A stretch of DNA of 64,000 nt from Falsirhodobacter flavus (lineage in GTDB: Bacteria > Pseudomonadota > Alphaproteobacteria > Rhodobacterales > Rhodobacteraceae). The position numbers and the translations under genes are program-made. Below the pieces are notes generated by a model that was not told the origin of the DNA, did not search any database, and worked only from the letters and a program-made list of their open reading frames with translations. Positions 1 through 4,886 of this stretch are shown one piece after another (the stretch's first letter is position 1; each line of letters begins with the position of its first letter). The stretch spans positions 124,001-188,000 of the forward strand of contig JARWBI010000001.1 in the NCBI GenBank assembly GCA_029846755.1. Reading direction: 5' to 3'.

Positions 1-67
1 TCTCTCTCTCAGCGGTAGGTCGGGCGCTGATACCTCTGAGCGTTCGCGCCCGGGGGCACGCTCAGAG
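1..67 (-). promoter_or_regulatory. Attenuator stem-loops after a leucine leader peptide
   Basis: Read as minus-strand RNA, CTCTGAGCGT (67-58), which contains the leader stop codon, pairs perfectly with ACGCTCAGAG (43-34). Further on, TCAGCG (30-25) pairs with CGCTGA (14-9). CTCAG (40-36) in the second arm could instead pair with CTGAG (12-8), so competing folds are possible, as in amino-acid attenuators. The controlled gene and the final terminator lie beyond the left edge. The pairings are seen; the attenuation mechanism is inferred. Confidence 0.72.
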
Positions 68-142
68 CAGAGTAAGAAGAAGCAGGCCGCGGGTGCGGAT
101 CAGGGCGCTTGCGCCGAATGCGATATGTTGGTCCCGTGCCAT
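62..142 (-). CDS. Leucine-rich leader peptide (26 aa) of an attenuated branched-chain amino-acid gene
   Basis: This is a short frame, ATG at 142 to TGA at 62. It begins MARDQHIAFG and ends GLLLLTLL, so six of its last seven codons are leucine (CTG, CTT, CTT, CTT, ACT, CTG, CTC). The stop lies inside the first arm of a 10-bp stem-loop. This is the classical layout in which ribosome stalling at leucine codons selects the RNA fold. There is no ribosome-binding site, and a good promoter puts the transcript start at or next to the ATG, so translation is probably leaderless. The target is most likely leuA or another leucine/isoleucine/valine gene off the left edge; it cannot be seen. Confidence 0.8.
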   Translation of the reverse strand: MARDQHIAFGASALIRTRGLLLLTLL

Positions 143-149
143 AGGGCGG

Positions 150-177
150 ACTATAGGCGGCGCGAAACCCGGCGCAA
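150..177 (-). promoter_or_regulatory. Promoter of the leader peptide transcript
   Basis: On the minus strand, TTGCGC (177-172) and TATAGT (155-150) are separated by 16 bases. The -10 box ends seven bases before the leader ATG, so transcription should begin at or within a base or two of that ATG. Confidence 0.65.
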
Positions 178-204
178 CCCCAAATAAAGGACAGCTTTTC
201 TGCC

Positions 205-1194
205 CTACAACCATTTCTTGCGGCGGAACCAGATATAGGGAAGCAGCGCCGACAGCACCATCGCCCCTATGGCCAGCGGATAGCCGTAGCGCCAGTCGAG
301 TTCGGGCATGTTGTGAAAGTTCATGCCATAGATGGTGCCGACCAGCGTGGGCGGCAGAAACAGGGCGGTCGCGACGGACAGGACCTTGATGATCTGGTTC
401 TGCTCGACCCCGATCAGGCCGATGGTGGCGGAATGCAGGAAGGTCAGCTCCTGCTCCACCTGCGATTCATAGGCTGAAAGGGAGCGCAGGTCGCGCTCGA
501 TCCCCTTCAGGCGCGCGGCCTTGGGGGTAAGCGGCAGCGGCCCGCTTTCCCGCGCCCCGGCGGTGCGCAGGAACGGGATCAGCCGGTCGAGCGAGAGCAT
601 GCTTTCGCGCAGGATCGACAGGGTGCGGCTTTTTCGTCCAAGGCGGCGGACCAGCGATTGCAGGTCGTGGCCGGGCTTGGGTTTGCGGGCGCTCTCCTCC
701 TCGGTAAAGAAGATTGAGTCGGACAGGTCCGACAGGTCGGCCGAGGTCTGCTCCAGCACGTCGGCAATCCGTTCCACCACCGCTTCCAATATCGTCGCCA
801 TCAGGCGCGGGGCGGTGTCGCATTCATGCGGCGCGCGGGCGATGCGGGCGGCGACGGTCCGCAGCGGCAGCGGGTTGGTGTATCGCACGGTGATGAGCAC
901 ATGCGGCAGGAGCACGAAGGTCAGCTGCGCGCGCTTGGGGCGGCCGTCCTGCACGCCCTCGATCACGACGGCGGTCATCACCAACGCGTCGCCGTCGGTG
1001 TAGAGACGCGATGAATCCTCGATATCGGCCATCTCGGCGCGGGTGGGGACCTGCACGCCCATCCGGTCCTCGATCAGCTTTTCTTCCCAGCGGGTGGGGT
1101 TGCACAGATCGACCCAGAGGACGCCTTCGGGCGAGGGCGGGGCGCCTTCGACGGATTTGAGGCCCTGCGGCGTCAGGAAATGGTGTTCGATCAT
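205..1194 (-). CDS. corA: CorA-family divalent cation (Mg2+) transporter
   Basis: This 329-residue protein has the CorA architecture: a long acidic and helical cytoplasmic domain (about 1-265) followed by two C-terminal membrane helices (about 268-289 and 305-324). The signature GMN sits at residues 290-292 (context GTIYGMNF) at the end of the first helix, and the C-terminus is the basic RRKKWL. CorA proteins form pentameric channels for Mg2+ and sometimes Co2+ or Ni2+ uptake across the inner membrane. Length is normal for the family. The gene follows a hairpin terminator and precedes the leucine leader on the same strand, with its own promoter unlocated. The family is secure; the ion preference is not visible. 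Confidence 0.93.
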   Translation of the reverse strand: MIEHHFLTPQGLKSVEGAPPSPEGVLWVDLCNPTRWEEKLIEDRMGVQVPTRAEMADIEDSSRLYTDGDALVMTAVVIEGVQDGRPKRAQLTFVLLPHVLITVRYTNPLPLRTVAARIARAPHECDTAPRLMATILEAVVERIADVLEQTSADLSDLSDSIFFTEEESARKPKPGHDLQSLVRRLGRKSRTLSILRESMLSLDRLIPFLRTAGARESGPLPLTPKAARLKGIERDLRSLSAYESQVEQELTFLHSATIGLIGVEQNQIIKVLSVATALFLPPTLVGTIYGMNFHNMPELDWRYGYPLAIGAMVLSALLPYIWFRRKKWL

Positions 1195-1198
1195 GCCA

Positions 1199-1226
1199 AA
1201 GCCCCCGCAGGTGTTTGCGGGGGCTT
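1199..1226 (-). terminator. Hairpin terminator after the sugar dehydrogenase gene
   Basis: AAGCCCCCGCA (1199-1209) and TGCGGGGGCTT (1216-1226) form a perfect 11-bp stem with a 6-base loop, lying between the stop of the upstream minus-strand gene (1258) and the corA start (1194). The U tract is short, so it may also act as a stability element. Confidence 0.7.
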
Positions 1227-1257
1227 CAGACCGTGTCGCGCAGATTCGCGCAAGGGG

Positions 1258-2535
1258 TTATCCCTTGGTGATGCGCACGATCTCGGACGATCCGGTGTCG
1301 CGATCCTCGGTCACGGCATAGATCGCGCCGTCCGGTCCGACGCGCACGTCGCGCACGCGGGCATCGAGCGGGATGCGCTCCTCGTAGGCCACGCTGTCGC
1401 CGTTCAGGTGCAGAACGACCACGCCGGTGGAGACGAGGCCGCCGACAAGGGCCGCGCCGTTCCACTCCGGGAACTCCTCGCCCTCATAGAAAGCCATGCC
1501 CGAAGGCGCGATGACGGGGTCCCAGTAGTAGATCGGTTGCTGGGTGCCTTCGCGCTGCGTGATGCCTTCGCCCACGGGATCGCCGGAATATTCGATGCCA
1601 TAGGTAACTTCGGGCCAACCGTAGTTGAGCCCGGCCTCGGGGCGGTTCAGCTCGTCCCCGCCCTTGGGGCCGTGTTCGACCATCCAGAAACGACCCTCGC
1701 TGTCCAGCGCAGCAGATTGGGTGTTGCGGTGGCCGAGCGACCAGATTTCGGGCATCGCGCCTTCTTCGCCCGCGAACGGGTTGCCCTCGGCGGGGGTGCC
1801 GTCGGTGTTGATGCGGATGACTTTGCCGAAGTGGCTGCCGAGATCCTGCGCCTGCACGCGCGGCTCCTCGTCCGACCGCTCGCCCACGGTGAGCCAGATC
1901 ACGTCGTTTTCGTCGATGTTGATGCGGCTGCCGAAATGCTTGTCGCCGTCATAGGTGGGGCGCTGGCTGAAGATCACCTCGACGTCTTCGAGGCTGGCAT
2001 TTGCGCCATCCTCGACCAGCCGTGCGCGGGCGAGGGCGGTGCCGTTCCCATCCTCGCGCGGTTCGGCGAAGGAGAAGAAGATCGTGCCGTTTTCGGCGAA
2101 GTCATTGCCCAGCGCCACGTCGAGCAGCCCGCCCTGTCCGCCGAAATCGACCTCAGGGACGCCTGCGATGGCAGGGCCGGGGGTGCCGTCCGCGACGATG
2201 TGCATCGCGCCTTCCTTGGCGGTGACGAGCATCCGGCCATCGGGCAGGAACTCCATCGCCCAAAGATGGGGCAGGCCCTGGGCGACGACCTCGGTCGCGA
2301 CGGCGACGGTCTGTTCGGGCTGCGGCGCGCGGGTCTGGCCGTCGAAGGCAGGCTGCTGGTCCGGCGCGTTGGGGGCGGCGGTTTCGACCGGCTGGCCGGC
2401 GGGGGTGTCGGCGGCACCCGACGCGGGGGCGCTGCCGTCGGCCTGATCCTGCGGAACGGCATCGCCGGTCTGCTGGGCCAGAAGTGGGGAGGTGGAGAGG
2501 ATGGTTGCGGCAAGCAGAAGCGCGATGCGTGACAT
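1258..2535 (-). CDS. Secreted PQQ-dependent aldose (sugar) dehydrogenase
   Basis: This 425-residue protein belongs to the soluble glucose/sorbosone dehydrogenase family, periplasmic beta-propellers that use PQQ to oxidise aldoses. A signal peptide (residues 1-21, ending PLLAQQ) is followed by a Pro/Ala/Asp-rich linker to about residue 70 and then the propeller. Family signatures visible are GHRNTQ, EHGPKGGDELN and GLNYGWP. The start at 2535 is chosen over an upstream ATG because the signal peptide begins there and GGAG precedes it. No PQQ biosynthesis genes are in the window. The family is clear; the sugar substrate is unknown. Confidence 0.88.
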   Translation of the reverse strand: MSRIALLLAATILSTSPLLAQQTGDAVPQDQADGSAPASGAADTPAGQPVETAAPNAPDQQPAFDGQTRAPQPEQTVAVATEVVAQGLPHLWAMEFLPDGRMLVTAKEGAMHIVADGTPGPAIAGVPEVDFGGQGGLLDVALGNDFAENGTIFFSFAEPREDGNGTALARARLVEDGANASLEDVEVIFSQRPTYDGDKHFGSRINIDENDVIWLTVGERSDEEPRVQAQDLGSHFGKVIRINTDGTPAEGNPFAGEEGAMPEIWSLGHRNTQSAALDSEGRFWMVEHGPKGGDELNRPEAGLNYGWPEVTYGIEYSGDPVGEGITQREGTQQPIYYWDPVIAPSGMAFYEGEEFPEWNGAALVGGLVSTGVVVLHLNGDSVAYEERIPLDARVRDVRVGPDGAIYAVTEDRDTGSSEIVRITKG

Positions 2536-4812: not shown

Positions 4813-4828
4813 CGCAAGGGCGTGGGGC

Positions 4829-4879
4829 GGGGGGGGGGGGGGGGGGGGGCGCGCCCCCCCCCCCCCCCCCCCCCCCCCC
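4829..4879. repeat. G21-CGCG-C26 homopolymer palindrome
   Basis: Twenty-one G (4829-4849), then CGCG (4850-4853), then twenty-six C (4854-4879) form a near-perfect palindrome of about 50 bases, with a GGCGCGCC core, between wrbA and ileS. Such runs are very rare in bacterial chromosomes. It could be an assembly or base-calling artefact, a collapsed join, or a real hypervariable hairpin. Run lengths should not be trusted as given. Confidence 0.9.
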
Positions 4880-4886
4880 ACAGGGT

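Follow-up and report, generated by a model that had tools for sequence, protein, structure and literature searches.

A leucine-rich leader with a covarying pseudoknot and base stem precedes leuA in Falsirhodobacter flavus and its family: a probable translational attenuator

Results

A leucine-rich leader ORF lies directly upstream of leuA

The window that we analyzed, a stretch of 64,000 nucleotides, comprises bases 124001-188000 of its contig (JARWBI010000001.1) in the F. flavus assembly GCA_029846755.1. At its left edge the minus strand carries a leader ORF of 26 codons (positions 142-62; MARDQHIAFGASALIRTRGLLLLTLL), which is kept in relatives and ends with a TGA stop at 64-62. Its C-terminus reads LLLLTLL-stop, bearing out an earlier note on this DNA that had described a 26-codon peptide with six leucines in its last seven codons. 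The same note had placed the regulated gene off the window and had expected leuA or an ilv gene. When the contig was extended leftwards (locus L003), the ATG of leuA was found at L003 3994, 6 nt past the window edge, with AGCATC in between. The gene is a 520-aa ORF on the minus strand (L003 3994-2432), and its product contains the Pfam domains HMGL-like and LeuA_dimer. A gene of leucine biosynthesis therefore directly follows a Leu-run leader, as in the amino-acid operons controlled by leader peptides, and the run of Leu codons in the short ORF is conserved in relatives, on which the note had made its claim depend.

A gene for a CorA-like transporter (205-1194) precedes the leader on the same strand. 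Behind it and ahead of the leader ORF lies a terminator-like hairpin with a T-rich tail (minus strand, 188-206; L003 4206-4188), which makes a separate transcription unit for the leader probable. Further into the window, the stretch between genes at 4826-4880 consists of a long G run, then CGCG, then a long C run, possibly an assembly or sequencing artefact.

A -10 box at a conserved distance from the leader ATG

The earlier note had proposed a TTGCGC-16-TATAGT promoter that starts the transcript at the leader ATG. Both elements are present on the minus strand: a -10 box TATAGT (150-155) ends 7 nt ahead of the leader ATG and is separated by a 16-nt spacer from a weak -35 box TTGCGC (172-177), which matches TTGACA at three of six positions. 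A strict sigma-70 scan of the stretch returned no promoter, and it is the position of the -10 box that is conserved. Searching relatives for a hexamer that starts with TA, matches TATAAT at four or more of six positions and ends 5-9 nt before the in-frame leader ATG, we found one in 88 of 103 sequences (own included; L059, whose truncated contig lacks the leader ATG, and one sequence too short upstream were left out). The spacing was 7 or 8 nt in 79 of these 88, and at eight control positions, shifted 12 to 30 nt either way, only 1 to 20 of the 103 sequences had such a hexamer. An earlier, stricter rule that required the final T gave 66/103, and picking the ATG nearest the stop blind gave a match in 50/103, versus 4-5 in three controls. 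Mean -35 matches were highest at a 16-nt spacer (66 sequences tested).

No Shine-Dalgarno sequence was seen ahead of the window's own leader ATG, in agreement with the note, and a Shine-Dalgarno-like motif occurs at this place in 4 of the 103 sequences. The conserved spacing of -10 box and ATG fits a transcript that would start at or next to the leader ATG, as the note had proposed, and a leader that would be translated leaderless.

His-Ile at leader codons 6-7 (window 127-122) is common in relatives, and 60 of the 88 leaders with a placed -10 box have a His/Asn/Asp/Ala/Ile-Ile pair starting at codon 6-8. Forty of these 60 use CAT and four CAC; 76 leuA genes contain 513 CAT and 616 CAC. The preference for CAT might reflect a signal in the DNA or RNA close to the start.

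The leader stop lies in a stem, and the Leu codons can pair with the leuA start region

Four helices can be drawn in the RNA of the minus strand. Stem A, a perfect 10-bp helix in which the earlier note had correctly located the leader stop, pairs CTCTGAGCGT (67-58), made up of the last Leu codon, the stop and four more bases, with ACGCTCAGAG (43-34). The alternative pairings that the note had seen downstream are there as well. Helix B joins CGGGCGC (52-46) in the loop of A to GCGCCCG (27-21), making a pseudoknot. Helix D joins TGCTTCT (84-78), within the Leu codons, to AGAAGCA, of which three bases are in the window (3-1) and the rest past its left edge (L003 4000-3997); this downstream strand ends two bases before the leuA ATG. 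A small hairpin C (TCAGCG, 30-25, with CGCTGA, 14-9) excludes B; it was seen in the centroid fold and belongs to the window's own sequence only.

The computed folds of this one sequence are divided among these helices. Its lowest-energy fold has B complete, with seven of seven pairs, and no pair of A, C or D, and the centroid fold consists of a six-pair D helix, part of A and hairpin C. Mean pair probabilities, calculated without pseudoknots, were 0.69 for D, 0.53 for A, 0.51 for C and 0.42 for B. The D duplex has an energy of -15.3 kcal/mol, better than 86% of swapped partners; model R1 (see below) places D a little more upstream here. The competing structures are predicted to be close in energy, as a switch might need, which proves nothing alone. 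The fold energy of the leader is ordinary (z -0.50; 56 of 200 shuffles are at least as stable); the case for the element rests on conservation and covariation.

The element recurs throughout the family

We collected leuA relatives from three sources: 60 of 61 genomes of the family, with upstream DNA; the best 80 loci from a scan of named genomes; and a search across the class, which matched 94 of 190 genomes and added 28 further loci. One Paracoccus plasmid copy was left out. We treated 112 loci as family, namely 30 (L004-L033, own included), 51 (L034-L085, assigned by identity and title rather than by a taxonomy check, minus L083, which has no leuA start) and 31 (L114-L144). A detector that looks for a frame rich in Leu whose stop falls within a stem found the element within 450 nt of leuA at 102 of the 112 loci; it had no null control, and the E-values of a covariance model, R1, built from 26 sequences, serve instead. 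At five loci (L041, L044, L074, L128, L144) the element lies further upstream, before a cupin gene that precedes leuA, and at three (L123, another cupin case, L007 and L026) the detector missed it and the covariance model found it. L080 and L135 gave no element by either method. The leader and stem thus recur at 110 of 112 family loci (own included), which argues that the element is no chance feature. The commonest leader ends are LLLLSRL (27/102), LLLLSCL (6/102) and LLLLSSL (6/102).

Outside its seed, R1 found 80 of 84 loci (86 minus the duplicates L043 and L132), missing L017 (E 0.047), L027, L080 and L135. A search of 299 genomes of the phylum with R1 gave 15 matches, 14 of them within the family; it missed the family genome G023, and other misses are possible. 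The match outside the family (G402, L189) sits in apparent repetitive coding sequence and was judged a chance match. R1 is close to family-specific. In the window's own genome it finds one real copy; three further listings have E-values of 5.6 to 8.8, and one of them is the opposite strand of the same place. With three mismatches or fewer allowed, a 17-base consensus pattern occurred at 3 places in this genome versus 14 for the backward control, and the leader itself was not among them. A plasmid search with window positions 1-240 gave no match. Rfam 15, where the earlier note had thought to look, returned only irrelevant chance matches for window positions 1-1500 (E up to 5) and for 11 relatives (E up to 1), and no Rfam family matched the leader in these searches.

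Beyond the family we examined 55 other alphaproteobacterial leuA loci (28 from the named genomes, 27 from the class search). A strict test was passed by 26 of them: each carries a frame that contains Leu, most of these frames finish with Pro, and the stop falls within a stem, for instance CCCC-TGA / TCAGGGG. Among these 26, D-like 6-mer complements were found in 13 versus 7.6 expected, a count that 0.7% of permutations reach, and D-like 8-mer complements in 2 versus 0.4 expected. A D-like helix in leuA leaders outside the family is suggestive only. Leaders at L086-L113 and L145-L171 have ends such as LLLLSCP or LRLTRP, and some have just two or three codons for Leu close to the end.

Helices A, B and D show compensatory changes

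The earlier note had pointed to covariance of the hairpins as a check on its reading, and helices A, B and D all show compensatory changes in relatives. In the family, A is a stop-codon hairpin that pairs CCTC-TGA-GCG with CGCTCAGAGG, in B the loop of A, GGCGC, joins a downstream GCGCC, and D pairs the Leu/Ser codons TCCTTAGCC with GGCTAAGGA ahead of the next gene.

For B we compared loops and downstream partners in 105 distinct sequences (107 minus 2 duplicates), eight of which have a loop that is neither GGCGC nor GGTGC. Sequences with a GGCGC loop have GCGCC downstream in 79/82 cases and GCACC in 7/82, and those with a GGTGC loop have GCACC in 10/15 and GCGCC in 4/15.

The least biased test of D asked, in the same 105 sequences, how often the hexamer at leader codons -4 and -3 has its exact complement within 90 nt downstream. 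It does in 35 of 105, versus about 1.5 expected from species with another hexamer, and none of 5000 permutations (mean 13.5) reached 35. CTTAGC meets GCTAAG in 25 of 50 sequences, and GCTAAG occurs in 1 of the 55 species with another hexamer. Among the 55 sequences without CTTAGC there are 10 complements versus a mean of 2.0, a number again reached by none of 5000 permutations. This test replaced one based on duplex energy, which is blunted by the shared CTTAGC: mean D energies were -15.1 kcal/mol for a sequence's own partner, -13.2 for swapped and -13.9 for base-shuffled partners, and D beat 90% of swapped partners in just 22/105 sequences. The median rank of 0.30 reflects that many species share CTTAGC.

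When 80 held-out sequences were aligned to the model, both partners had changed at 7 of the 9 pairs of D, 5 of the 10 pairs of A and 2 of the 6 pairs of B. Of the held-out cells, 88.4% were paired overall, 75.6% in D and 90.0% in B, a helix absent from the model. Sliding the partners by 1-3 columns lowered the paired cells from 88.4% to 34.4-55.3% and the covariation score from 0.186 to 0.041-0.063; slid partners still show 7 to 11 pairs changed on both sides versus 14 in the true register. These alignments lean towards D, the seed having been chosen for a clean D and alignment A3 fitted to the model. Given the seed, RNAalifold found A and D unprompted; the program does not predict pseudoknots, and the three pairs by which it lengthens A within the loop would be in competition with B.

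The shuffled controls are inflated by the kinship of the sequences, for which a LeuA tree is the sole correction, and a weak one. On this tree the choice between CTT and CTA changes at least eight times. For D, all 38 scorable species (38/78; the other 40 could not be scored) agree with pairing, but just one independent pair is on well supported branches. For B, 63 of 66 scorable species agree (12 of 78 could not be scored); 2-3 of 5 supported pairs change together and none against.

The leader lacks a terminator-like site, and its D strand lies near the next start codon

We found no terminator-like site between the leader and leuA in the window's own sequence, and none of the 105 sequences has a TTTTT run in the 75 nt after stem A. 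A run of four T occurs there in 10/105, and five or more T within the 8 nt directly after A in 2/105. The intrinsic terminator of classical transcription attenuators was thus seen neither at the own locus nor in the 105 sequences. The earlier note had called the locus an attenuator; its leader, its stem and a following leuA hold, and we found nothing in support of intrinsic termination.

With the six cupin loci left out, we took the distance from the end of the model-placed D strand to the leuA start downstream in 100 relatives. It is 5-12 nt in 25 of them, 13-25 nt in 59 and larger in 16. In the first group D occupies the place of a Shine-Dalgarno sequence. In the second a block of the leuA start is plausible, if less direct, since the small ribosomal subunit may still contact mRNA 13-25 nt upstream of a start codon. 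Hiding of a Shine-Dalgarno sequence by D is clear just in part. The distance from the leader stop to leuA, with start codons as assigned here, ranges from 67 to 220 nt. Ten relatives (L028, L062, L139, L054, L006, L084, L131, L025, L073 and L133) have their first leuA-frame start 57 to 256 nt past the model-placed D strand; D or the start codon may be misplaced in them, or extra sequence may intervene.

In six genomes (L041, L044, L074, L123, L128 and L144) a cupin gene sits between the element and leuA. Its ORF has 117-118 aa; the L041 protein matches Cupin_2, and its identity to each of the others is 68.6% or higher. In these operons the element stays at the head, and from the end of the D strand to the cupin start there are 4-9 nt in five of the six and 15 nt in L074. 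That D lies near the cupin start in six rearranged operons suggests an element that acts on the first gene of the operon, whichever it is.

Pairing also accounts for codon choice in the leader. At codon -4, 101 of 103 leaders use CTT or CTA, as pairing with an AAG or TAG strand requires. Of the 495 Leu codons among the last eight positions of the leaders, 239 are CTT or CTA, versus 225 of 2811 in 76 leuA genes, and such rare Leu codons may also sharpen sensing.

Discussion

We consider it probable that the element is a cis-acting, leucine-sensing leader of leuA that works by translational attenuation. A conserved helix between the Leu codons and the stretch ahead of the next start codon speaks for regulation at the level of translation, and the lack of a terminator-like site, together with the rearranged cupin operons, favors translational over termination control. 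What the sequences themselves supply is the leader, leuA, the spacing, helices A, B and D with their compensatory changes, and the lack of a terminator-like site; from these we infer the start site, the stalling, and the direction and level of control.

Transcription would begin at or next to the leader ATG, and the leader would be translated without a Shine-Dalgarno sequence. With leucine plentiful, the ribosome would read through the Leu run and leave at the stop inside A. Once it is gone, A, B and D could fold, the Leu codons pairing with the region before the leuA start. The A/B pseudoknot would bring the two strands of D together, D being the switch, and leuA would be translated poorly when D has formed. 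With leucine short, the ribosome would wait for Leu-tRNA on codons -7 to -4 and cover the 5' strand of D. D could then not form, whatever A and B do, and leuA would be translated. The predicted lowest-energy fold of the window's own RNA, which lacks A and D, counts against this translational switch and lowers our confidence in it.

The architecture appears to be that predicted for actinobacterial leuA, judging from the text description of the LEU element (Seliverstov et al., 2005; PMC1262725). As described there, the LEU element has a Leu-run leader, a base stem that joins the Leu codons to the leuA Shine-Dalgarno sequence, and a pseudoknot. The present element likewise has a Leu-run leader before leuA, a D-like base stem to the start region of the next gene, seen by covariation in the family, and a predicted enclosed pseudoknot whose helices A and B each show compensatory changes. 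It differs in that it occurs in another phylum, its leader is apparently leaderless with the stop in the pseudoknot stem, and compensatory changes were counted on 80 held-out sequences. According to the same text, other attenuator elements were missing in the actinobacterial case, the mode of regulation was left open and a binding protein was proposed; experiments on Streptomyces coelicolor leuA that it cites did not fit classical attenuation. By analogy of the two elements, the S. coelicolor result speaks against the translational switch proposed for the family and lowers our confidence in it. The control genomes gave no actinobacterial leuA loci for comparison, and two Streptomyces plasmid genes were not used as leuA, their neighbours pointing to secondary or lysine-type synthases.

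Leader-peptide control of amino-acid operons is usually transcription attenuation, with the leu, ilv and trp operons of enterobacteria as the classical cases. It is possible, if rather unlikely, that the same leader and RNA switch govern termination in the family, for example through Rho acting on the untranslated leader or on early leuA RNA; Rho needs no U-tract. Caulobacter ilvIH is described as controlled by transcription attenuation through a leader CDS (PMC4117421). The enterobacterial attenuators and, by that description, Caulobacter ilvL-ilvIH (PMC4117421) share with the leuA leader a short ORF with many end-product codons, alternative RNA folds and a biosynthetic gene next in line. Unlike them, the leuA leader has no terminator-like site, and its pairing appears to aim at the leuA start region. 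Termination control is further opposed by the lack of a TTTTT run in the 75 nt after the stem in all 105 sequences and by the D strand near the start of the next gene, even where that gene encodes a cupin.

We think it most improbable that the leader acts through coupled reinitiation or through its peptide, with helices that just set the spacing and a conserved N-terminal M-T-R-x-x-H-I motif as the functional part. The frequent His/Asn/Asp/Ala/Ile-Ile pair would fit such a role, and the leader peptide of Sinorhizobium trpL is described as acting in trans (PMC10117765); but short leaders without the N-terminal motif occur (L024, L038), the C-terminal codons and the downstream strands covary as RNA, and the stop-to-leuA distance is variable. 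Sinorhizobium trpL (peTrpL/rnTrpL) is, as the leuA leader is predicted to be, an alphaproteobacterial attenuator with its leader ORF at the RNA 5' end, but it concerns tryptophan and by the same account yields an sRNA (PMC10117765). Least probable is a protein that binds the pseudoknot while the Leu codons are no sensor, the reading put forward for the actinobacterial element, in which mutated Leu codons are cited as having no influence on regulation (PMC1262725): here the conserved -10/ATG spacing and the open frame suggest a translated leader, and the Leu run is longer than D needs.

A literature search by title found no alphaproteobacterial leuA leader; the survey by Vitreschak et al. (2004, FEMS Microbiol Lett), which PMC1273637 cites for an alphaproteobacterial ilvB leader, may hold one. 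What appears to be new here is the covarying pseudoknot with its base stem, the lack of a terminator-like site, and the operon rearrangement that favors a translational switch. It is a tentative and rather unlikely idea that the alphaproteobacterial leuA leader and the actinobacterial LEU element are one ancient regulator, kept or reinvented across two phyla. If true, the sensor codons themselves would hide the start of the next gene, held by a pseudoknot, and in Alphaproteobacteria this would be combined with leaderless initiation.

For the family, the element would be a compact and family-wide regulator of leucine synthesis without an Rfam entry, in which the sensing codons are proposed to be the hiding strand. 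It offers a reason for the fixed position of Leu codons, CTT and CTA, that are rare in leuA genes, and the six cupin-operon rearrangements together with the covariation make the translational model directly testable.
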